Shown here: piece by piece, positions 5,748 to 36,669 of the stretch | Layout: each line of letters begins with the position of its first letter | Position numbering within the stretch: the first letter of the stretch is position 1 | Source of the DNA: Desulfurivibrio sp. | Lineage (GTDB): Bacteria > Desulfobacterota > Desulfobulbia > Desulfobulbales > SURF-16 | Assembly (NCBI GenBank): GCA_003605035.1 | Contig: QZKJ01000036.1 | Span: 1-38,810, forward strand | DNA: 38,810 nt | Direction of reading: 5' to 3' | Made by a program: the position numbers and the translations under genes | Notes under the pieces: generated by a model | What the model was told of the DNA's origin: nothing | The model's database searches: none | What the model saw: the letters and a program-made list of their open reading frames with translations, nothing else

Positions 5748-6695
5748 ATGAAAAATCTGGACTATTATAAAGTGCTGGGCGTGGCCAAGGACGCCTCAGC
5801 GGATGAAATAAAAAAGGCCTATCGCAAACTGGCCCTGAAATATCATCCTGACCGCAACCAGGGCAACAAGGAGTCGGAAGAGAAATTCAAGGAGGCCAAC
5901 GAGGCCTATGCGGTGCTGTCTGATGCGGAAAAGCGCAAACAGTACGACACCTTCGGTTCGGCCGGTTTCCAGCAGCGCTATTCCCAGGAAGATATCTTCC
6001 GCAACTCCGACATCGGCTCCATTCTCAGGGAGTTCGGCATCAACTTCGGCGGCATGGGCGGCGGCTTCAGCTCCGGCGGTTTCCGCACCTTCTCCAGCGG
6101 TGGCAGGAGTCCCTTTGACGATGTCTTTTCCCAGGGCGGCGGCCCAGCCGGCCGGGGATTTCGCCCTCAGTCACCGGTCAAGGGGCAGGATCTCTCCCTG
6201 GAGCTGTCCATCTCCCTTGAAGAGGTGATGAGCGGCGCGGAAAAAACCATCTCGCTGGGCCGGGGCGGAGAAAAGGTGACGGTCAAAATCCCCTCCGGCA
6301 TTGAAAGCGGCAAAAAACTGCGGGTAACGGGCAAGGGCTCCCCTTCGCCCATGGGCGGCCAGGCCGGGGATCTCTATCTGCACATCAAGGTCGAACCGCA
6401 TTCGGTGTTTGTGCGGGAGGGCAACAACCTGGTTATCGAAAAGGCCATCCCCTTCAGCGCTGCCGTGCTGGGCACGGAGATTGACGTCCCAACCTTAAAC
6501 GGCAAGCAGTTCAAGGTAAAAGTGCCGGCCGGCATCCAGCCCCAGTCCAAACTGCGGCTGAAAGGCCATGGCCTGCCTGCCGGTCCCCACGGCCCCCACG
6601 GCGATATTCTGGTTAAGGTTACGGTGGAGGTTCCGAAAAAGCTGAACAAGGCCCAGAAGAAACTGCTGGGCGAGCTTGCCGAGGCAGGCTTGTAG
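5748..6695 (+). CDS. DnaJ-family co-chaperone, zinc-finger-less (CbpA/DnaJB type)
   Basis: 315 residues. The J domain (about 3-70) carries the HPD motif at 33-35, which stimulates the ATPase of DnaK-type Hsp70. A Gly/Phe-rich linker (about 90-140) follows, then the two beta-barrel client-binding domains (about 143-310). The four CxxCxGxG zinc-binding repeats of classical DnaJ are absent, so this is the CbpA class, not the main DnaJ; the length fits that class. The start is fixed by the conserved opening [10 protein letters not shown]. No dnaK or grpE lies nearby, so it appears to be a stand-alone co-chaperone gene. Its stop codon abuts a palindromic spacer shared with the convergent gene. Confidence 0.93.
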
Positions 6696-11336: not shown

Positions 11337-14300
11337 ATGCACTTTACTGACCTTTTTATCCGCCGTCCCGTTCTCGCGCTGGTGATCAGTCTCGTCATCA
11401 CCATTGCCGGCCTGCAGGCGATCCGCTCACTCAACGTCCGGCAGTTTCCGGTCAGCGAAAACTCCGCGATCACCGTGACCACCGTGTATGTGGGGGCCAG
11501 CGCCGAGCTGGTGCGCGGCTTCATCACCACCCCGCTGGAGCGGGCCATTGCCGCCGCCGACGGTATTGATTACATCGAGAGCCAGAGCGCCCAGGGCGTC
11601 TCCACCATTAACGTCCGCCTGAAACTGAACTACGACGCCACCAAGGCTCTGGCCGAAGTCGGCTCCAAGGTCGACCAGGTCCGCCGCGACCTGCCGCCGG
11701 AGGCCGAGGTGCCGGTCATCAACATCGAGTCCGCCGACAGCCAGTTCGCCTCGGCCTATCTCAGCTTCACCTCCACGGTGCTCAAGCAGAACGAGATCAC
11801 CGACTACCTGGTCCGCGTCGTGCAGCCGCGCCTGTCCGCCGTGGAAGGCGTGCAGCGTGCCGATATCCTGGGGGCCCGCACCTTTGCCATGCGCATCTGG
11901 TTGAAACCCGACCGCATGGCCGCCTATAACATCAGCCCTGCCCAGGTTCGCCAGGCCCTGGCCGCCAACAACTACCTGGCCGCCCTCGGCCAGACCAAGG
12001 GGTCGCTGATCCAGGTGAACCTCATCGCCAACACCGATCTGCGCTCAGTGGAGGAGTTCAAAAATCTGGTCATCCGCGAACAGGGCGGCGCGCTGATCCG
12101 GCTGGCGGACATCGGCGAGGTGGTGCTGGGCGCCGAGGATTATGACACCGAGGTCCGGTTCTCCGGCCAGACCGCGGTGTTCATGGGCATCTGGCCCCTG
12201 CCCAACGCCAACTCCCTGGATGTGGTCAAAAGGGTGCGGACCGCCATGGACGGGGTCCAGCGGGACCTGCCCTCCGGCATGCAGGCGCGCATCGCCTATG
12301 ACGCCACCGACTACATCAACAACGCCATCCACGAGGTCATCAACACCCTGGCCGACACCCTGCTGATCGTGGTGGTCATCATCTTTCTCTTCCTCGGCTC
12401 TTTCCGCTCGGTATTCATTCCTGTGATCGCCATCCCGCTGTCGCTCATCGGCGGGGTGTTCCTCATGCAGGTGTTCGGCTTCACCATCAATCTGCTCACC
12501 CTGCTGGCCATCGTGCTCTCCGTCGGTCTGGTGGTGGATGACGCCATCGTGGTGGTGGAAAACGTGGAGCGGCATCTCGGCGAAGGCAAATCCCCCCTGG
12601 ACGCGGCCCTGACCGGCGCCCGGGAACTGGTCGGCCCCATCATCGCCATGACCATCACCCTGGCGGCGGTCTATGCCCCCATCGGCCTGCAGGGCGGCCT
12701 CACCGGCTCCCTGTTCCGCGAATTCGCCTTCACCCTGGCCGGCGCAGTCACCATCTCCGGGGTGGTCGCCCTCACCCTGTCGCCCATGATGTCCTCCAGG
12801 CTGCTGAAACCAGGGCTGGCCGAGCATGGTCTGGCCGGCAGAATCTCCCGCGACTTCAAACGGCTGCGCAACGTCTACGGCCGCCTGCTTGACGCCACCC
12901 TGCGCGCCCGGCCGGCGGTCTACCTGGTGTGGCTCGGGGTCAGCCTGCTGACCATCCCCATGTTCAGGATGTCGCCGGTGGAACTTTCCCCCAACGAGGA
13001 CCAGGGGGTTATCTTCGGCATCATCGATGCGGCGGCCAACTCCACCCTGGACCAGACCAGCCGCTATGCGGCGGCGGCCAACCGGATATTTCTCAGCATC
13101 CCGGAGACGGATTTCACCTTCCAGATCACCCAGCCCAGTTCCGGTTTCGGCGGCATGGTCACCAAGCCATGGGACCAGCGGGAACGCACCATCTTCCAGA
13201 TCCTGCCCGAGGTGCAGCAGAAACTGCATGGCATAGCCGGCATCCGGATGTTCCCGGTCCTCCCCCCTTCCCTGCCCGGCGGCGGCCAGTTCCCGGTAGA
13301 GTTCATCCTGGCCTCCACGGCCGAGACCGAAGAGATTCTGCAGTTTGCCGGCCAATTGCAGCAGAAGGCGATGCAGAGCGGGCTTTTTGCCTTTCCGCCT
13401 CTCATCGACGTAAAAATCGACCAGCCCCAGTCGGAATTTGTCATCAACCGCGACAAGGCGGCGGATCTGGGGCTCAACCTGGAACAGGTGGGGGCGGACA
13501 TCGGGGCCATGATCGGCGGCAACTTCGTCAACCGCTTCGACATCGCCGGCCGCAGCTACAAGGTCATTCCGCAGATCCAGCGGGTGGACCGGCTCAACCC
13601 TGACCAGCTCAAGAACATCTACATCACCGGCCCGGCCGGCCAGCTGGTGCCGCTCAGCACCATTGCCACCATTGACAATTCCACCGTGCCGCGCTCCCTG
13701 AACCGCTTCCAGCAGCTCAATGCCGTGAAAATCAGCGGCGTGTCGATCCGGCCCCTTGGCGAAGCGCTGCAATTCCTGGAGGATGAAGCGGCCAAAATCC
13801 TGCCCCAGGGGTATACGATTGACTACACCGGCGAATCCCGGCAGCTGCGCACCGAGGGCAATAAATTCCTGCCGGCCTTCTCCCTGGCCGTGGTGCTCAT
13901 CTTCCTGGTGCTGGCCGCCCAGTTCAACAGCTTCCGCGACCCTTTCGTCATCCTGGCCGGCTCCGTGCCGCTGGGCATTTTCGGGGCGCTCATCTTCACC
14001 TTCCTCAAAATGCCGGACCCGAACGCGCCTTTCTGGACCCACGGCTGGACCACCACCATGAACATCTACTCCCAGGTCGGCCTGGTCACCCTGGTCGGCC
14101 TGGTTTCCAAAAACGGCATCCTCATCGTCGAGTTCGCCAACAAACTGCAGCTGCAGGGGCATTCCAAGCTGGATGCGGTGAGGGAGGCCTCCATGACCAG
14201 GCTGCGGCCGATTCTCATGACCAGCGCGGCCACGGCGGCCGGCCATTTTCCGCTGACCCTGGTGACCGGCGCCGGCGCCGCGGCCAGAAACTCCATCGGC

Positions 14301-25724: not shown

Positions 25725-26396
25725 ATGAAATACTTATGGGTGAGTTCAGTCTTTATGGCGGGACTGATTCTGAGCGGAGGCAATGCTTTTGCGGCAGGCG
25801 GGAATATTCAATCCGACAGTGCGCGGAATCTGCCAGAGAACCATCTCCTGCTGGCAGATGCCTCCCTTGACCTTGACATCACCATGGAAGTTGTTGACGA
25901 GGATGTGCAGTCCTCGAAAGATATCACCAATGTTATCGAGCTGCCGCTTCGTTCCCGGCATCAGGAAATGAAAAGGCATGAGGAACAGCTGGGCAATGGA
26001 CCTGATTTTTCCAATGGCCCCGGCAAAGGACAGGACAGCGGCCCAAACCCTTTTCCGGAGGGCAGCCAGGAATCCCAGCAACGGATTGACCGTCCAGCTG
26101 ACAGCGCCGGCCCCGCCGACAGTGCCAGCCGACCAGACACAACCAGCCGTCCAGACACTGCCAGCCGACCTGACACTGCCAGCCGACCTGACACAACCAG
26201 CCGTCCCGACACGACCGCCCGACCTGACACAACCAGCCGTCCAGACACGACCGCCCGTCCTGACACGACCAGCCGACCAGACACGACCGCCCGTCCTGAC
26301 ACGCCCAGCCGACCTGAAACGATCAGTCCCGCAGAAATGGGCAATAGAGATACCGCGACCACACCGAAAGGAGATGCGACCAGACAGGGCAACTAA
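25725..26396 (+). CDS. secreted low-complexity protein with 11 hexapeptide repeats
   Basis: 223 residues. The signal peptide is cleaved near AFA-A (residue 23). A conserved-looking segment follows (about 44-78: DLDITMEVVDEDVQ, DITNVIELPLRSRH). The rest is hydrophilic: an Asn/Gly/Pro stretch, then residues 135-200 made of eleven (S/A)RPDT(T/A/P) units, then a polar tail. GAGGTG lies before ATG. It closes the sigma/anti-sigma operon, ending before a strong terminator. The DITMEVV...VIELP segment may be the functional part, for example sensing together with the anti-sigma factor's outer domain; the repeats are probably a flexible spacer or wall/exopolysaccharide-facing tail. Function unknown. 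Confidence 0.82.
   Translation: MKYLWVSSVFMAGLILSGGNAFAAGGNIQSDSARNLPENHLLLADASLDLDITMEVVDEDVQSSKDITNVIELPLRSRHQEMKRHEEQLGNGPDFSNGPGKGQDSGPNPFPEGSQESQQRIDRPADSAGPADSASRPDTTSRPDTASRPDTASRPDTTSRPDTTARPDTTSRPDTTARPDTTSRPDTTARPDTPSRPETISPAEMGNRDTATTPKGDATRQGN
26127..26324 (+). repeat. 18-bp tandem repeat, 11 copies, in coding sequence
   Basis: Eleven in-frame 18-base units encode (S/A)RPDTX. Copies differ mostly at third positions and in the last codon (ACA, ACG, GCC, CCC), with the first residue alternating Ser/Ala in later units. The last unit has Glu for Asp. Such arrays change copy number by slippage or recombination. Confidence 0.9.
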
Positions 26397-29671: not shown

Positions 29672-30232
29672 AATGAGGTGGAAAACCGACTCACGACTTA
29701 TCCGTCTCCGCGCAAGCAGGTTCCCGCCGGGGAAAGAACAAAGGCCAGGGCAAAACCGACAAGCAGGGTTACTACGCTGATCCCCTCCAGAACAGCATAG
29801 TTCCAGCCTGCAGCAAGAGCTTTACCGGACACCTCAGTGGCAGAGGCAGTGTTGCTGGCATTTGCATGCGGCAACAGCCTCCCTGAACCCCACCGCACGC
29901 AACTCCGCTCCATCTGTCTCTGCTGCCATGCCGGCCTGCTCCTGGCCATTGTTAATAGCACCAAACTTAATACCTTGCAGCCTGCACAAACCTTCGAGGA
30001 CATCATACCAGGCAGATTCATCGCTGCGTCACTTCTGAACCTGGCGCCCCCTTGAGCCCATGCCACCGGCCAGCACCCCCTGAAAAAATCAGCGGCATAA
30101 AGCCGTCTGAGATTTTTTCCCCACCGTGCCGCCGGTAAACATGCCCCTCTTTCCTCATTGAAAGATTTCAGACACGATTATCGTTTGCTATCCCGCCACT
30201 CCTCATTCGCCAACTTATCGAACACAGCCCTC
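29672..30232. other. 560-base gap, possible gene remnant
   Basis: No intact gene is supported. On the minus strand two overlapping frames have protein-like stretches: one with a good membrane helix (GISVVTLLVGFALAFVLSP, about 29715-29770), and another reading WYDVLEGLCRLQGIKFGAIN then stopping. Neither has a credible start, which suggests a frameshifted remnant. A terminator lies at 30082-30119. Confidence 0.4.
30082..30119 (-). terminator. intrinsic terminator, probably of the receiver-cheW operon
   Basis: GAAAAAATC-AG-CGGC pairs with GCCG-CTG-GATTTTTTC with small bulges around an ATAAA loop; the arm ends in six T on the minus strand. It lies about 115 bases after the cheW stop and could work in both directions. 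Confidence 0.6.
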
Positions 30233-30628
30233 TCAGAAAGGCGCTGTCGTTTCCTTTTTTGCCAGGGGCAGGCGCAATTTCGCCGTCTTCCTGCTGATAT
30301 TGACGACCTCCGAAACGGCATCGACAATGATGCCAACCTCGGAAACAACCCCTTTACTGGCCTGGACCTCAACAACGAGAATGCAGGTTTTTTCCGTGTA
30401 CCTGTCATGGTGCATATTAAATTTCTGCCGGATGTCCACCACCGGCAGGAATTTACCCCGGTAGTTGATCACCCCTTCCATGGAGAGCGAAAATCCGGGA
30501 ACACAGATAACGGTCATCAGTTCAACAACCGCCTTGACCTTGAATATGCCCAGGCCAAATGTATCCCCGCCAAGGCTGAAAGTCAGAAATCTTCCTTGAC
30601 CGACGGTTCTTTTCCGCTGTTTGTTCAT
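30233..30628 (-). CDS. cheW: CheW-like coupling protein
   Basis: 131 residues from ATG 30628, fixed by AGGAGG seven bases upstream (the open frame extends 34 codons further). It has the CheW fold: GRFLTFSLGGDTFGLGIFKVKAVVELM, PGFSLSMEGVINYRGKFLPVVDIRQKFNM with the conserved NYRG, and VGIIVDAVSEVVNI. It is slightly short, missing part of the last strands found in a roughly 150-residue CheW. CheW couples chemoreceptors to CheA, but neither a receptor nor CheA is in the window, so the partner must be encoded elsewhere. It lies 40 bases after a receiver protein lacking its phospho-Asp and is probably made from the same sigma54 promoter. Confidence 0.92.
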   Translation of the reverse strand: MNKQRKRTVGQGRFLTFSLGGDTFGLGIFKVKAVVELMTVICVPGFSLSMEGVINYRGKFLPVVDIRQKFNMHHDRYTEKTCILVVEVQASKGVVSEVGIIVDAVSEVVNISRKTAKLRLPLAKKETTAPF

Positions 30629-30668
30629 AGCACCCTCCTGAGAGTGGGCAGCAGGCAGGCACGCCATG

Positions 30669-31124
30669 TCAAGAGTGACTGTCAGCGCCCATTTTGCCCT
30701 GCTGAGGCAAAGCGCCGGACATGACGGCATGCTGTTTTTTTACAGCAATCATCCTGATCGTGAGCATAATCTGGGCAGGCAGCACCGGTTTCTTCAGCGA
30801 GGCATCAATATCCGGCCTGATGACTTTATTCATCAAGTCAACATTGCCGAATCCGGAAACCATCAGCACAGACACCGCAGGGAAATTCTGATGCAGCCAG
30901 CGGACCAGATCAACCCCCTGCATGTTGGTCATGAAAAATTCCGCTACCACCAGATCAAAAGGCCGGCCGTCAGACTCTGCCGCCAGCACCATGCTTTTTG
31001 CCGTATTCCCTTCATGGGCGACGTAAACTTCAAATCCTTCTCGTTTGAGATGACGTTCTACGGAATGGCTGAAAACCTCATTGTCATCAACGATCAGAAC
31101 CTTGTGAATACAGGTATGAGTCAT
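30669..31124 (-). CDS. CheY-like receiver with Asp-to-Glu change at the phosphorylation site
   Basis: 151 residues, one receiver domain with a short basic tail. The fold markers are present: VLIVDDNE with D13-D14, S90 at the Ser/Thr switch position and K112 (SLKKPV). At the end of strand 3, where relatives read LLDxxMPxMDG, this protein reads VVAEFFMTNMQG, so the phospho-acceptor is E62 (codon GAA at 30939-30941) and the Pro and second Asp are also changed. Glu at this site often mimics the phosphorylated state, so the protein may be constitutively active or may work by binding alone. It lies just upstream of cheW and about 85 bases downstream of a candidate sigma54 promoter. Confidence 0.9.
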   Translation of the reverse strand: MTHTCIHKVLIVDDNEVFSHSVERHLKREGFEVYVAHEGNTAKSMVLAAESDGRPFDLVVAEFFMTNMQGVDLVRWLHQNFPAVSVLMVSGFGNVDLMNKVIRPDIDASLKKPVLPAQIMLTIRMIAVKKQHAVMSGALPQQGKMGADSHS

Positions 31125-31432
31125 TTTATCCTCTTGTAAGGAGCTGTCATCGTCTCTGCCAAGTGCCGGTTTGACAAGTCTGACACCAGGCAGCCACTGA
31201 CAAGCTGATGCAAGGCGGCTGCCAAGGGCGGCAGCTAAGGCAAATAAATACTAACCTGCTGAAATAAAATGATTTCTATAAGGACATACAGAAACAACAG
31301 GGGTGAGGACAGCGACATAAATATCGCCTGGCCCAGGGACTGAGGTGAGGGCCGGTGAAGTGCCCGGATGGCTAATCGATTATTTTTGCTCGAAAAAATC
31401 GGCAAACGACATTTAGGTCAGCGGCCTGCGAC
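31125..31432. other. regulatory intergenic region between NtrC-type gene and receiver gene
   Basis: About 310 bases with no gene. It holds a terminator-like hairpin next to the activator gene's stop, an imperfect AT-rich inverted repeat at 31377-31401 (CGATTATTTTT with AAAAAATCG), a GGCCC/GGGCC pair around 31329-31353, and a sigma54 promoter at 31208-31225. This is the order expected for an enhancer-controlled promoter. Confidence 0.55.
31208..31225 (-). promoter_or_regulatory. candidate sigma54 (-24/-12) promoter of receiver-cheW operon
   Basis: On the minus strand TTGGCAG-CCGCC-TTGCAT. The invariant GG and GC are exactly ten bases apart, with the TGGCA and TTGCA half-sites nearly perfect. 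It lies 84 bases before the receiver start codon. A sigma54 activator gene lies immediately upstream. Confidence 0.65.
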
Positions 31433-31441
31433 CTAAATGTC
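31408..31441 (-). terminator. 12-bp perfect hairpin overlapping the stop of the sigma54 activator gene
   Basis: GACATTTAGGTC and GACCTAAATGTC flank a ten-base loop; the TAG stop lies within the first arm read on the minus strand. TTTTTT follows about nine bases after the stem. It probably insulates the kinase/activator operon from the sigma54-driven genes; it might also be a protein-binding site. Confidence 0.55.
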
Positions 31442-32803
31442 ATCAAGGATCTGCCGCCAGCCGGGCTGTTTTTTCATCACGGCAATCTTTCTCTGCAGAT
31501 GCCGGAGGGTGACCCCGAGGATTTTTGCCGCCCGCGGATGGTCACCTTTGCTTTGCCGCAGCACATAAGCGGTATGCGCCTCGGCATCCTCCTTCAACGT
31601 GCAGAGTTTCCTGGCAAAAGAAAACTGAGACGGCCCTGCCTGCTGGCCAAAATCCTCGGGGATGATGAAAGGCCCGGCGGCCATGAGCACGGCATTTTCC
31701 ACCTGCTGGGCCAGTTGCCGGATATTACCGGGGTATTCCTGCAGCTGCAGATGATCAATGGCCTCGGGGGTGAAGCCGCTCAACTCCTTGCCGTGGCGCA
31801 GACAGGCTCTGTGCAGAAAATGCTCGGCGAGCAGCGGGATATCTTCTTCACGCTCCCGCAGGGGGGGAAGATGCAGATGCACGGATTTCAGACGGTACAT
31901 GAGATCCAGCCTGAAGGCCCCCTCCTGGCAGGCCTTGTCCAGATCCACGTTGGTGGCGGACACGATGCGGACGTTGACGGCAATCTGTTGCGGGTCACCG
32001 AGACGGGTGACCTTCTTTTCCTCCAGCACCCGCAGAAACTTTACCTGCAGATTCCTCGGCAACTCGCCGATCTCATCAAGAAACAGGGTGCCGCCATTGG
32101 CCTGTTCAAAAAAACCCGGATAGCTGGCGGTGGCTCCGGTGAATGCCCCTCTGGCATGCCCGAAAAACTGGCTTTCAAAAAGGGAATCCGAGACAGAGGC
32201 CACATTGACCGCCACAAATGGGCCATCGGGCTCAGGCCCCGCCTGATGAATGGCCTGGGCGAGCAGCTCCTTGCCGGTGCCGGATTCGCCGGTAATCAGC
32301 ACGGGATTGCCGCTTCTGGCCATGGTCTGGGCAAAGAGCAGCAGTTCCTTCAGGCGGGGACTCTGGGTGACAATGGCGCTGAAGGCCTCTGACAGCAGCC
32401 GCTCCTGCCGCGAACCGGCCCCGGCCAGTCCGGTCAGCAGTCCCCGCCGCTCGTAGGCATGTTCCAGGGTCAGCAGCAGCCGCTCGTTCTCCACCGGCTT
32501 GACCAGATAATCATAGGCGCCCAGCCGTATGGCCTTGACCGCCGTATTGACGTCATCCACCGCGGTCAGCATGATGAATTCCGTGGAGGGTTTGAAAGGC
32601 TTTACCGCCTCAAGCAGCTGCAGGCCGTCCATCCCGGGCATGAGCAGATCGACAAAGACCACATCGAAATCACCGTCCTTGATTCGTGCCGCCGCCGCCG
32701 GTGCGCTGTCACAGACCTCGACATCCTGATAACCGCGATGCCGCAATAATCTCCGCACTGAACTTAAAGCGATGGGTTCATCGTCAACCACAAATATCTT
32801 CAT
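31433..32803 (-). CDS. NtrC-family sigma54-dependent response regulator
   Basis: 456 residues. The receiver has D7-D8, D52 (FVDLLMPGMDG) and K102 (VKPV). The AAA+ domain has Walker A GESGTGKE (172-179), the sigma54-contact loop GAFTGA (219-224) and Walker B TLFLDE (239-244), all intact. The C-terminal Fis-type helix-turn-helix contains DHPRAAKILGVTLRHLQRKI. When phosphorylated it should oligomerise and open sigma54 promoters. Its start overlaps the kinase stop by four bases (ATGA), making that kinase the cognate partner. A good sigma54 promoter just downstream is a likely target, and possibly others in the genome. Confidence 0.95.
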   Translation of the reverse strand: MKIFVVDDEPIALSSVRRLLRHRGYQDVEVCDSAPAAAARIKDGDFDVVFVDLLMPGMDGLQLLEAVKPFKPSTEFIMLTAVDDVNTAVKAIRLGAYDYLVKPVENERLLLTLEHAYERRGLLTGLAGAGSRQERLLSEAFSAIVTQSPRLKELLLFAQTMARSGNPVLITGESGTGKELLAQAIHQAGPEPDGPFVAVNVASVSDSLFESQFFGHARGAFTGATASYPGFFEQANGGTLFLDEIGELPRNLQVKFLRVLEEKKVTRLGDPQQIAVNVRIVSATNVDLDKACQEGAFRLDLMYRLKSVHLHLPPLREREEDIPLLAEHFLHRACLRHGKELSGFTPEAIDHLQLQEYPGNIRQLAQQVENAVLMAAGPFIIPEDFGQQAGPSQFSFARKLCTLKEDAEAHTAYVLRQSKGDHPRAAKILGVTLRHLQRKIAVMKKQPGWRQILDDI

Positions 32804-34416
32804 ATCCGCAACCTTCCCGTTGTCTTGATGATGCTGGCCAGTTTTTCAAGCTTCAGCGGCCTGGCCAGAAAAAAATCCGGCCGGAAATCCAAGCCTGCGG
32901 ACCACCTCTCCTCTTCGGCAGGGTCAGCCAGGCACAGCACCGGCAGCAGGGGAAACCGTCTCTTGATGTTTGCCAGCGCCGTTTGCCCGGCAGCTTCATG
33001 CCGCAGCATATCGCACAGCACCATGTCCACCTCGGGATGATCCTGCAGAAAGGCGACAACCTCTTCATGGGAGGCGATGCTTTTGGCCGGCAGGTTCTCC
33101 ACCTTGGCAAAAAAGGAATGCAGCCGGACCAGGGTAGCGGGATCCTCATCGATACAGAGAATGGTCGGCCGCAGGTCCAGCCGGCTCTGGCGGCGGTCAA
33201 TGGGCAGGATAACCGTAAATTTCGTGCCCAGACCAGGCCGGGAGAACACGCCGATGCGGCCCATATGCTCCTGCACCAGACCGTAGGATACCGAAAGTCC
33301 GAGCCCGGTACCCCCGGAACTCCTTCTGGTGGTGAAGAACGGTTCAAAAATACGCTCCATCACCTGGGGCTCCATACCGCGGCCGTTGTCTTCCACCTCG
33401 GCCACCACGGAATGCAGACGCAGATTAACCCTGGTGCGGATGGCGATCTTCCCTTTTTCCTTCTCAGGAACCGCCTGGACGGCATTCATGATCAGGTTGG
33501 CCATGACCTGTTCCAGTTTCTGAAAATGGCCGTGGAAGCCGGGCAGATTGTCCGCCAGTTCCAGTTCGATGCGGCCCACGGACTTGCGCGCCTGGGCGCC
33601 GACAATGGTCAGGGTATCCGTGATCACCTTGTTGAAATCAACCATGGTGCTCGGCGCGCTCTCATCGAGCCGGGCGAAATCCTTGAGGTTGGCGACAATC
33701 TTATTGATCCGGTCGGAGCCTGTTCTGATCGCCTGAATGATCTCGCCCATCTCTCCGGTCAGCTCTTCCAGCGTAATATTGCCGTGCCTGCTGCCCGGAT
33801 TTCTTTTCATATGGTCTCTGATGATCGGCACAAAAATCTCCCAGGATTCCTCCAGAAGGGGGATGTTATAGGTGATAAAACTGTTGGGGTTGTTGATCTC
33901 GTGGGCCACCCCCGCGACCACCTCGCCAAGGGAGGCCAGCTTGTCAGCCTGGATGACCTGCTGCATATGCACATCCGCCTCCTGTTTCATCCTCTTCTCT
34001 TCACTGATATCCTGCACCATGCCGACAATATGATCATTATTGCTGGAGTCGGCATCCCTGATCAGCCTGCTGGAGCTGCTCAACCATTTATAGGAACCGT
34101 CAGCCACCTGCAGTCTGTATTCCCGCCGCTGTATTCCTTCATTGACCAGCAGCTGCAATTCAGCCGAAACCCGGCTGCGATCATCCGGATGCACGTGTTT
34201 GATCCAGAAATCCGGATCTGCCATGAACTGCTCAGCCGTATAGCCGGTAATCGTTTCCACCGATTTGCCCAGGTAGGTAATGGCAAAGTCGCCATCCGCC
34301 CGGCGGGTATAGGGGATGATCGGCAGAGATTCCATGATGATCGACAGCTGCTCATGGATGGTCTGGAGCTGCTGCACCTTTGCCACAAGTTCATCGTATG
34401 TCGGCTTCTGATTCAC
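32800..34416 (-). CDS. PAS sensor kinase with degenerate C-terminal receiver
   Basis: 538 residues with no membrane helix. A short coiled coil, a PAS domain (about 25-140; HVHPDDR, ending VQDISEEKR), the H-box DKLASLGEVVAGVAHEINNP with H172, and an ATPase domain (EDNGRGM, GGTGLGLS) precede a C-terminal receiver-like domain (about 417-538). That domain keeps the acidic pair (D423, D425) and D469 (LCDML), but lacks the Ser/Thr (Ala497) and has Arg519 where the invariant Lys should be, so phosphorylation chemistry is doubtful. The kinase should phosphorylate the overlapping NtrC-type regulator; the receiver may have become a purely structural regulator. Confidence 0.93.
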   Translation of the reverse strand: MNQKPTYDELVAKVQQLQTIHEQLSIIMESLPIIPYTRRADGDFAITYLGKSVETITGYTAEQFMADPDFWIKHVHPDDRSRVSAELQLLVNEGIQRREYRLQVADGSYKWLSSSSRLIRDADSSNNDHIVGMVQDISEEKRMKQEADVHMQQVIQADKLASLGEVVAGVAHEINNPNSFITYNIPLLEESWEIFVPIIRDHMKRNPGSRHGNITLEELTGEMGEIIQAIRTGSDRINKIVANLKDFARLDESAPSTMVDFNKVITDTLTIVGAQARKSVGRIELELADNLPGFHGHFQKLEQVMANLIMNAVQAVPEKEKGKIAIRTRVNLRLHSVVAEVEDNGRGMEPQVMERIFEPFFTTRRSSGGTGLGLSVSYGLVQEHMGRIGVFSRPGLGTKFTVILPIDRRQSRLDLRPTILCIDEDPATLVRLHSFFAKVENLPAKSIASHEEVVAFLQDHPEVDMVLCDMLRHEAAGQTALANIKRRFPLLPVLCLADPAEEERWSAGLDFRPDFFLARPLKLEKLASIIKTTGRLRI

Positions 34417-34637: not shown

Positions 34638-35282
34638 TTATAATCCAAGCTCATCGGCTATTACACGGGCAAATGCGGCGTACTCGCTATCGGCCTTGCA
34701 TGCCTCAACAAGTAATTCCTTAGCAACTGGATCGGTTTCCGCATAAGATGCCAACACGAAAAGCCGGGAAATATGCTTGGATCGATATGCCCGCAGATCA
34801 TTTCGGTTTAAACCCAGCAATACTTCTGTAATTGTTCCACGGGGCGTCTTGCCTATTACTGTTGCCAGCTTGGCAATTGGGTCAAAAACAAACTCAAGAT
34901 GTTCATCCGGTGTGTCCACACAAGGATTTATTAACGGACCTCCTTCGTGTTCTTCAGGAAAACGGTCCCCTTTATATTCTGAACCATTGCATATAGGACA
35001 TGACAGGAGAAGGTTAGACCACTCGAAGGTCAACTCGAGGAATCTAGATTTTGGCCGGAAATGCTCAATATGACCGTATTCAATATGGGAAATTTTACTT
35101 TCGCAATATGCACACTTCCCGCGAAACATGCTAACCAGGACATCCTTAATTTCTCGATGACGATACTTCTTTTCCCATCTGCGTTTATCCGCATCACTAC
35201 CTGCAGCCAACAGAGCCCTGGTCCATGCCTTCTGATGCCGGTCAAGCACTCCCGGCTTCGGTAGCCGAGTGATTTTGATCAT
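34638..35282 (-). CDS. ptuB: HNH nuclease, PtuB/TIGR02646-like (Septu defence effector)
   Basis: 214 residues. It has the metal-binding HNH layout of PtuB-like proteins: C57-x2-C60 (KCAYCESK), H71-x2-H74 in GHIEHFRPKSR, WSNLLLSC, then C95-x2-C98 (CPICNGSEYKGDRFP). Catalysis would be DNA cleavage by the His/Asn/His centre. Its start overlaps the ATPase stop by four bases, so the two are translated together. In Septu systems PtuA and PtuB form a complex that degrades DNA during phage infection; in type I-A retrons (Ec78) the same pair is the effector. No reverse transcriptase is seen here. GC content is clearly below the neighbours (about 47% in a sampled stretch), fitting horizontal gain. Confidence 0.82.
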   Translation of the reverse strand: MIKITRLPKPGVLDRHQKAWTRALLAAGSDADKRRWEKKYRHREIKDVLVSMFRGKCAYCESKISHIEYGHIEHFRPKSRFLELTFEWSNLLLSCPICNGSEYKGDRFPEEHEGGPLINPCVDTPDEHLEFVFDPIAKLATVIGKTPRGTITEVLLGLNRNDLRAYRSKHISRLFVLASYAETDPVAKELLVEACKADSEYAAFARVIADELGL

Positions 35283-36592
35283 GACAGCTTCTTCTCCAGA
35301 AACACCTCAATTTTTTCCTGGAGAGAATCAGGTTCTGGTGGGCCGCCGATCGGTCTGGCTTCTTTCATAAAATCCAAGAGAGACTTAAACTCCGTATGTT
35401 CTTTCTCTGTAAGCTTATTCCTTTTAGGAAGCAATTCATCGTAACGATCAATTTTGCTCTGGGTCTGGGGAGAATAGGAAGAAACAAGGCCAAAAGCATC
35501 ACTTTGCAATATCCGGTCGACATTCATGGCGAACATCCCCGCTACCTTTTCCACATTGACCTTGCCATCGTTTAAGGAAAACTTGAGAGTCATTGCTTCC
35601 GGGCCAGCTCCAGCAGCAATGAGTGGACTATGGGTGGCAACAATAAACTGGAGATTGGGAAACTGCTCCCGGAGCCAAAGCGCTATATCTCTCTGCCAGA
35701 TTGGATGGAGGTGAATATCCAGTTCATCAATCAACACAACCCCTTCTTCTTTTAAAGGGTCATCGCTTGTCGGGAACGCCTGGATCAATCGCCAAACCAG
35801 ATCGCCGGCCAAGGCAAGGACACTCCGGTACCCATCGCTCAGGGCAAGTGTTGGAACCTTTGTCCCTTCTACATCAAAAAAGATGCGCCCCTCAGCGGTC
35901 ACACTATCGAACCGGACACTTTCGGGCAACAAACGGTTGATCGCCGCGATACCCAATTCCTTCTGGCGTTTCGCTTCAGTATCATTGTTTTTTACAATGC
36001 GATAATCTAGATAAACCATCCAACGTTCAAACGCCGACAGTGGCTGATCTTCATCAAATTGCGTGATAAAGTTCGTATAACGAGCCTGAGGTTCCAGGGA
36101 AGGCACAATGATCTCGCTTTTACGGGTAAGCCGGCGGAATGCTCCATAACCGACGGCAAACCAGCCAGAGCCCTTGGATGTAAAGGCATTCTGGCGCAGC
36201 CATGTCAGCCGTTTTTCCGGAGATTCATGTACACCAGGCTCAGTATGAACCTTGTTGCGAATGGTCAATTGCTTGCTGCCCGTGAGGAAAAAAGTATAAC
36301 CGAAGGCCCGGGTAACTCGTTCGAGTCCGAATTGACCGGGGTCATGATCCGACTGGTGAATTTTGATGGAAAGCTTACCGGTCTGCTCCTCATCCCGAAG
36401 CCAACCGACAGGTCGTGGCACCAACTTCTGAGCGCTCTCAGGTCCGGCCAACAGTAATGCCAACGACTGGAGAACCGTGCTTTTCCCACAGCCATTCCGG
36501 CTGAGAAGGGTAATCCATTTTTTACCTTTTATTCGCAGAGAGACTTTCTCAAAGCAGCGGATGTTTTCCAATGTCAATTCTTCTACAAACAT
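35279..36592 (-). CDS. ptuA: SMC/ABC-like ATPase, PtuA-like (Septu defence)
   Basis: 437 residues from ATG 36592, supported by GAGGGG seven bases upstream (the frame extends five codons more). It opens FVEELTLENIRCFEKVSL, as do RecF/OLD/PtuA-like ATPases. Walker A is SRNGCGKST (31-39), with Ser for the usual first Gly; a signature-like LSDGYRS (251-257), Walker B VVLIDELD (285-292) and a His switch at H321 (VATHSPLI) follow. There is no Toprim nuclease domain, which argues against OLD/Gabija. The insert between Walker A and signature is short, as in PtuA. It is first in the overlapping pair with the HNH gene. It presumably senses infection and controls the nuclease; the trigger is not evident. 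Confidence 0.82.
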   Translation of the reverse strand: MFVEELTLENIRCFEKVSLRIKGKKWITLLSRNGCGKSTVLQSLALLLAGPESAQKLVPRPVGWLRDEEQTGKLSIKIHQSDHDPGQFGLERVTRAFGYTFFLTGSKQLTIRNKVHTEPGVHESPEKRLTWLRQNAFTSKGSGWFAVGYGAFRRLTRKSEIIVPSLEPQARYTNFITQFDEDQPLSAFERWMVYLDYRIVKNNDTEAKRQKELGIAAINRLLPESVRFDSVTAEGRIFFDVEGTKVPTLALSDGYRSVLALAGDLVWRLIQAFPTSDDPLKEEGVVLIDELDIHLHPIWQRDIALWLREQFPNLQFIVATHSPLIAAGAGPEAMTLKFSLNDGKVNVEKVAGMFAMNVDRILQSDAFGLVSSYSPQTQSKIDRYDELLPKRNKLTEKEHTEFKSLLDFMKEARPIGGPPEPDSLQEKIEVFLEKKLS

Positions 36593-36669
36593 AAAGGTAC
36601 CCCTCAAGGTAAAAGATCAATAATGTCTGGCAATTGTAACAACTAGGGAATAATAGGGTATGCAAAAAT

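Follow-up and report, generated by a model that had tools for sequence, protein, structure and literature searches.

Genes and predicted regulatory sites of the locus

The DNA analysed in the present study, hereafter referred to as the window, is a stretch of 38,810 nucleotides from Desulfurivibrio sp. that constitutes the entire contig C41 of a genome of 4.2 Mb in 118 contigs; this genome is 93.6% complete and contains rpoN. The minus strand of the window carries genes for a PAS hybrid histidine kinase, an NtrC-type sigma-54 activator, a single-domain receiver and a CheW protein without its C-terminal part, followed by the fossil of a gene for a methyl-accepting chemotaxis protein (MCP); together they represent a conserved chemosensory cassette, predicted to be under the control of the activator, which in the window has no receptor and carries a pseudo-receiver (Table 1). 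An earlier, sequence-only reading of this DNA had described a kinase-activator circuit facing a two-gene unit of receiver and CheW, and had overlooked the receiver of the kinase itself, the truncation of CheW and the MCP fossil downstream.

Table 1. Genes and predicted regulatory sites of the locus, with positions in the window (UAS, upstream activator sequence)
Feature	Positions	Strand	Description
PAS hybrid histidine kinase	32800..34416	-	538 aa; Pfam PAS_3, HisKA, HATPase_c, C-terminal Response_reg
NtrC-type sigma-54 activator	31433..32803	-	456 aa; Pfam Response_reg, Sigma54_activat, AAA lid
UAS dyad I	31428..31442	-	YGAC-N6-GTCR type; overlaps activator stop codon
UAS dyad II	31407..31420	-	YGAC-N6-GTCR type; 22 bp from dyad I
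UAS dyad III	31312..31327	-	Weaker, GCGATATTTATGTCGC, not strict; 86 bases from -24 element
-24/-12 sigma-54 promoter	31209..31225	-	TTGGCAGCCGCCTTGCA; predicted start near 31198
Single-domain receiver	30669..31124	-	151 aa; Pfam match; phospho-Asp position is Glu62 (LVVAEFF)
CheW, C-terminal part missing	30233..30628	-	131 aa; GGAGGG in front; Pfam CheW positions 2-101 of 138
MCP gene fossil	29698..30232	-	About 49 residues around membrane segment recognisable

The genes of the kinase and the activator overlap by four bases, as had been read from the sequence before, and the same overlap was observed in 11 of 12 loci, with 13 bases in the remaining one. The domains PAS_3, HisKA and HATPase_c are consistent with the PAS kinase of the sequence-only reading, but the additional C-terminal Response_reg domain makes it a hybrid kinase; no strongly hydrophobic stretch was found in it (highest 19-residue hydropathy mean, 1.06). 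The activator combines a receiver with an AAA+ domain carrying GAFTGA, as in operons controlled by bacterial enhancer-binding proteins, and its receiver is intact, with D7, D8, D52, T80 and K102 invariant in six aligned orthologs. GAFTGA and a Fis-like helix-turn-helix end were seen by eye, and Pfam called no helix-turn-helix in this protein.

Other hallmarks of such operons were also found, namely a GG-N10-GC promoter and, as sequence only, palindromic activator sites upstream of it. The -24/-12 site faces the receiver and CheW genes, as claimed before, and its score was reached by 2 of 500 dinucleotide shuffles of the region. Dyad III is identical in the locus L062 and shows one change in L061. 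The hairpin of the sequence-only reading exists as an inverted repeat (31407-31442), which most likely represents the enhancer of the activator, that is, the pair of dyads I and II. Its role as a terminator was rejected because the dyads are conserved across loci and no Rho-independent terminator, with a GC-rich stem and a T run, was scored in what was a consensus scan only. The AT-rich inverted repeat described between hairpin and promoter is likewise real (31377-31401), and was set aside as a part of the system, since the palindromes listed for two relatives of the same genus did not include it in this form.

Searching the 4.2-Mb genome for YGACNTTTAGGTCGY with at most one mismatch revealed a single match, at dyad I, and 13 matches for the reversed control. 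The pattern GCGAYNTTNNNGTCGC also matches C3:18659, in DNA covered by long open frames and with no sigma-54 match of 10 or more nearby, and this match is taken as chance. Another strict dyad lies at position 13937 of the window.

Conservation of the cassette and loss of parts in this genus

Among 257 genomes of the order, a receiver profile (best 15 candidates scored per genome) revealed 14 orthologs scoring at least 126 bits, with the next candidate at 98, and an activator profile (best 6 candidates scored per genome) revealed 17 places in 15 genomes at 522 bits or more, the next reaching 434. Thirteen of the 14 receivers directly follow the orthologous activator; the contig begins inside the activator in L104 and inside the kinase in L064. 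The fourteenth receiver (G004:C297, locus L066) lies near a contig end, located upstream of it, and is preceded by three strict dyads and GTGGCACAGGGGTTGCT, a -24/-12 match. The sequence-only reading had asked whether receiver-CheW pairs regularly occur apart from activator and promoter, and among the orthologs found here they do not. In L066, the gene behind the receiver is a long open frame that resembles a coiled coil by eye, and not CheW-MCP. When 22 genomes from the family were searched at the protein level, receivers were found in two genomes of the same genus (87 and 85% identity) and, more distant (49% or less), in another genus.

The regulatory sites are conserved together with the genes. 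The 13 activator-receiver regions were scanned, each with 45 bases of the activator end and 30 beyond the assigned receiver start, and all 13 contain a -24/-12 site of the GG-N10-GC type with 10-12 of 13 consensus positions, the score of which was reached by 0-22 of 500 dinucleotide shuffles per region. Strict dyads of the YGAC-N6-GTCR type number 31 in these regions, compared with a mean of 0.11 and a maximum of 2 in the summed shuffles. In seven loci, two strict dyads with a spacing of exactly 22 bp lie at or over the stop codon of the activator, an eighth locus has a spacing of 21 bp, and six of these eight loci have a further strict dyad 91-104 bp on. Four other loci contain two strict dyads 83, 115, 116 and 458 bp apart, and L061 contains one. 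In L099 and L104, the true start of the receiver must be further in, because the first start codon of its frame lies at or before the -24/-12 site; in L101, the scanned region reaches into the receiver gene. For the four activators without this receiver (G004:C16 and those of G161, G162 and G163), no strict dyad was found from 45 bases before to 900 bases after the stop codon; a receiver-kinase gene lies directly downstream of the activator of G004:C16.

CheW follows the receiver in 12 of the 13 loci (none was seen in G237), and an MCP gene follows in 10, one of them cut by the contig end, with a fossil in the other three. Thus, the two-gene unit of the sequence-only reading describes what is left in the window, but the unit of the relatives is receiver-CheW-MCP. 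The sensor parts of these MCPs differ, with CZB in L065, L099 and L103, HAMP in L100, and four-helix-bundle matches in L063, L098, L101, L102 and L104 (that of L063 under the cut-off). When the intact MCP of L063 was used in tblastn, 49, 136 and 125 residues (the last in two pieces) were recovered in the window, L061 and L062, respectively, with 51% identity over 49 aa and an E value of 1.2e-4 in the window, and no piece reaches the signalling domain in any of the three. The fossil DNA of the three genomes can be aligned, with indels and large losses.

The CheW gene is also incomplete. Its Pfam match bears out the earlier assignment, but the C-terminal quarter of the domain is missing, and the protein is therefore filed as CheW-derived rather than as a complete CheW. 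The loop and C-terminal strands of the other orthologs are absent, and six solved CheW sequences range from 139 to 167 aa. An assembly error was rejected as the cause of the truncation, because the same end is found in three genomes. The AlphaFold2 (AF2) model, built from 11 sequences (mean predicted local distance difference test score, pLDDT, 76.6), is confident to about residue 112, with a last strand at 104-112 and a tail (118-131) under pLDDT 50. Compared with other CheW proteins of the genome (5 of 10 loci), the short CheW shows 24-33% identity.

Despite these losses, receiver and short CheW are under purifying selection, as estimated by comparing the three genus members (NG86, 200 codon bootstraps). 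Omega is 0.12 for the receiver (bootstrap 0.05-0.22), 0.11, 0.22 and 0.30 for CheW (bootstrap 0.05-0.52) and 0.12-0.14 for the activator, and the receiver and CheW frames are intact and of equal length in the three genomes at dS 0.23-0.79. The low omegas suggest that both genes were kept for a time after the loss of the phosphosite and of the CheW end.

The mutant phosphosite reported for the receiver was confirmed, with Glu at the phospho-Asp position in all three genus members. Thus, one residue of the set for a phosphorylatable receiver (DD, phospho-D, S/T and K) is replaced, D13, D14, S90 and K112 being kept, and the protein is a pseudo-receiver in the sense of receiver homology without the phospho-Asp. 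Among 23 distinct receivers, the position is Asp in 17, Glu in four, Asn in one (L128) and Ile in one (L130). The Glu receivers are the three of this genus and L109 (= L101), and as the activator tree nests L101 with the Asp-bearing L104 and L098, away from the genus of the window, the exchange from Asp to Glu most likely arose twice. With the three receivers of this genus counted once, Asp was lost in four of 21 lineages and some active-site residue in at least eight. Against the rates of about 4% Asp-less receivers and about 6% pseudo-receivers stated in PMC12632262, the chance of such counts is 0.009 and 1.7e-5, respectively, and both values are rough, since the base rates come from other samples. 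All active-site residues are kept in 4 of 14 distinct receivers with CheW, MCP or an MCP fossil next, and in 7 of 8 for which the next gene is a different one or was not called (the Glu of L125 at the first acidic position treated as kept, and G004:C297 left out); of these eight, L114, L115 and L128 have MCP-like genes further on. These counts hint at a link between operon context and receiver degeneracy, which is not independent of phylogeny.

The receiver at the C-terminus of the kinase is also degenerate in this genus, judging from its residues and substitution rates. Its conserved Lys is replaced by Arg in all three members and is kept in 20 of 22 other aligned kinases, including all 10 with a CheW- or MCP-bearing unit; omega is 0.22-0.42 in this domain compared with 0.08-0.12 in the kinase core. 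The joint loss of the MCP, the CheW end, the receiver Asp and this Lys suggests that the array might once have reported back to the kinase.

Distribution of the enhancer and of the kinase-activator pair

A search of the 257 genomes for the paired-dyad pattern revealed 10 places in eight genomes, and the reversed control revealed eight places; thus, the number alone proves little. However, core letters, position and genome separate the matches from those of the control, as nine of the 10 places and none of the eight control places lie in the 15 activator-bearing genomes. Seven of the 10 places are the module itself, and two others (G221:C166 and G222:C188) each have a -24/-12 site and then an MCP gene downstream, that of G222:C188 encoding a CZB zinc-binding domain (Pfam). 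A relaxed search of the 15 activator-bearing genomes, with a more specific pattern and up to three mismatches, yielded 13 places in nine genomes and none in the controls. Four places were new in this search, two of them being the modules of G021 and G039. Another, at G221:C204, stands upstream of a second CheW gene, with a third dyad and CTGGCATCCTCCTTGCT in between, and the last is at G237:C73. Thus, every predicted extra site tied to a gene precedes a chemosensory gene, and there are three such sites, all within two Desulfurivibrio-type genomes that belong to one genus. The letters upstream of the MCP enhancer of G221 (L237, near 6040-6100) resemble the 3' end of the activator gene by eye (compare L101, near 8900), and it looks as if the regulatory stretch was copied along with the end of the activator gene.

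In named genomes, a search with the kinase core revealed at least 80 loci. The pair followed by this receiver was also found, with the profiles of the present study, in L112, L114, L115, L117-L119, L125, L128 and L130, and some of these receivers precede other genes (DnaJ, HD or CheB-MCP-CheW). In Syntrophaceae, Syntrophales and Smithella loci, several of which end early, no such receiver was called after the activator. Among 16 intergenic regions inspected, similar dyads and a sigma-54 match were observed in L154 (Syntrophaceae) and L133 (a deltaproteobacterial metagenome-assembled genome); of the genes behind them (L154 10817-12186 and L133 4793-5653), those scanned (L154 11347-12186 and L133 4793-5653) have no Pfam family over the cut-off. 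By eye, these target genes sit beside genes resembling F-type ATPase subunits. Because different genes follow it across the wider family, the kinase-activator pair looks like a switch used with different targets.

Around the locus, a Septu-type defence pair (PADLOC; PtuB 34638-35282 and PtuA 35279-36607, minus strand) lies between the kinase and a PPDK_N gene. In L061, a gene resembling the PPDK_N gene by eye lies about 60 bp from the kinase, and the Septu pair therefore looks inserted in the lineage of the window. At 25725-26396 on the plus strand, between an anti-sigma-like gene and a TPR protein, a small predicted protein has a repetitive tail (RPDTTSRPDTA...), the repeat letters of which differ in L061. 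No RNA families were found in the window at gathering scores.

Proposed function, alternatives and known systems

Herein, we propose that the locus is quite probably a sigma-54 switch for chemosensory genes, present in the window as a receptor-less derivative with a pseudo-receiver, with its wiring and function read from the genes and sites described above. The PAS hybrid kinase would sense a signal and phosphorylate the adjacent activator. As the conserved sites suggest, the activator would bind the pair of dyads with 22-bp spacing located at the stop codon of its own gene, probably also the third dyad nearer to the promoter, and open the -24/-12 promoter. In most relatives, receiver, CheW and MCP would then be transcribed as a unit, and through this circuit an existing CheA array would gain a chemoreceptor together with a dedicated adaptor and receiver; the same predicted enhancer stands before a further MCP in two Desulfurivibrio-type genomes and before a further CheW in one of them. 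In this genus, the receptor, the C-terminal part of CheW, the receiver Asp and the Lys of the kinase receiver appear to have been lost, and the enhancer, promoter, receiver and short CheW to have been kept. The remainder would be a sigma-54-inducible receiver that is not phosphorylatable at the usual residue, together with a CheW fragment, and would most likely still act on a chemosensory array or the kinase through some form of contact. The sequence-only reading had suggested an array reconfigured on demand. The dyads and -24/-12 sites of all 13 loci and the extra sites before chemosensory genes are consistent with this suggestion for the cassette, but with the receptor a fossil and CheW truncated, a working array reconfigured by receiver and CheW is not supported in this genus.

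Several observations weigh against the proposed switch. No ortholog was found in 242 of the 257 genomes of the order (activator profile, best 6 candidates per genome) or in three of six genomes of this genus, and in other orders this kinase-activator pair is found in front of other genes. Six of the 13 module loci have no strict 22-bp pair, the relaxed search did not recover the modules of G004, G034 and G252, in which this pair is missing, and in the window dyad III departs from the strict pattern. For one of the receiver-less activators (L192), a 10-of-13 sigma-54 match was found 350 bases further along, within the gene that follows. Judged by its count, the order-wide paired-dyad search hardly exceeded its reversed control. 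The place in G193 found by this search has other core letters and is not tied to a gene, the stretch examined containing neither a sigma-54 site of 10 or more nor a subsequent open frame that reaches 100 residues, and the site at G237:C73 is chance-like, lying in an open frame of 654 codons that has no sigma-54 site. Moreover, the omega of CheW against the window reaches 0.30, and decay caught midway would equally show the loss of the MCP, the truncation of CheW and the loss of the phosphosite.

Such decay, in which the target unit is an outgoing remnant after the loss of the MCP and both receiver and CheW are functionless in this genus, seems rather unlikely to us. The MCP fossil in all three locus-holding genus members, the truncated CheW, the lost phosphosite and the degenerate kinase receiver with its raised omega are consistent with it, but the omega of the receiver is as low as that of the activator, the receiver and CheW frames have stayed intact at equal length over the divergence given above, and the dyads and the promoter have been kept. 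Somewhat less unlikely is a phosphomimetic role, in which the receiver with Glu would be a permanently 'on' output, with the promoter setting only its amount and CheW as a passenger. Glu is the commonest residue at the Asp-less position and can mimic phosphorylation in many response regulators, according to PMC12632262, and the remaining active-site residues are kept; however, the same review reports that this idea was disproved in some cases, and CheW is likewise under purifying selection. An operon under housekeeping sigma-70, with an incidental -24/-12 site and dyads and with the inverted repeat as the terminator of the kinase-activator transcript, is highly improbable. A sigma-70-like match just before the receiver (31150-31123, 10 of 12) would fit such an operon, but four such matches occur in the stretch compared with a shuffle mean of 2.7, the consensus scan assigned no terminator to the repeat, and the dyads and the -24/-12 site recur in 13 loci.

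Within the proposed switch, we tentatively hold it possible that the loss of its receptor has turned the former inducible cassette into a regulatory pair, in which a receiver independent of phosphorylation and a CheW fragment, both made on demand under sigma-54, act on the resident array or kinase, e.g. as a competing adaptor. In this wider view, the receivers of this cassette repeatedly became pseudo-receivers, and the family would provide a natural series for studying pseudo-receiver origin. The present results further predict an enhancer and a promoter that serve a small chemosensory regulon of Desulfobulbales, and capture one lineage after the loss of the receptor with its partners still selected.

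Predicted sigma-54 control of chemotaxis operons is already in print (PMC4641369, PMC2577667). The best-ranked literature, covered by titles and the starts of abstracts and with most subscription journals outside this coverage, contains no description of a gene order of kinase and activator followed by receiver and CheW, with or without MCP, and a word search of the main text of PMC12316311 revealed neither CheW nor chemotaxis. In the enhancer-binding protein regulons of Desulfovibrio vulgaris (PMC4641369), receiver-type activators and UAS near sigma-54 promoters are similar to those observed herein, and two sigma-54-dependent operons are tabled as chemotaxis; however, CheW and CheY are absent from the main text by word search, and the passages concerned contain no unit of kinase and activator with receiver, CheW and MCP. 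A study of D. vulgaris response-regulator targets (PMC3333781) abbreviates MCP in a figure legend, but its main text contains no CheW or CheY by word search. In Geobacter (PMC2577667), 9 of 110 predicted sigma-54 sites precede che, mcp or flagellar operons, but these concern major che clusters, and neither 'enhancer' nor 'NtrC' occurs in the text by word search. The mcp5 gene of Borrelia (PMC11723614) is likewise a chemoreceptor gene under a pathway including RpoN, but this pathway (Rrp2-RpoN-RpoS) runs through RpoS, and the abstract mentions no adjacent activator. The closest parallel to the receiver is provided by known pseudo-receivers, in which Asp is replaced by Glu at the phosphosite and receiver homology is kept (PMC12632262, PMC4395418), and the mechanisms of which were termed a mystery for bacteria in a 2025 review (PMC12632262). 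In contrast to these, the receiver described herein is a single-domain protein in a chemosensory operon, and Asp has been lost in four lineages of one orthologous family, in which phosphorylatable orthologs and others that are not phosphorylatable share their operon context.

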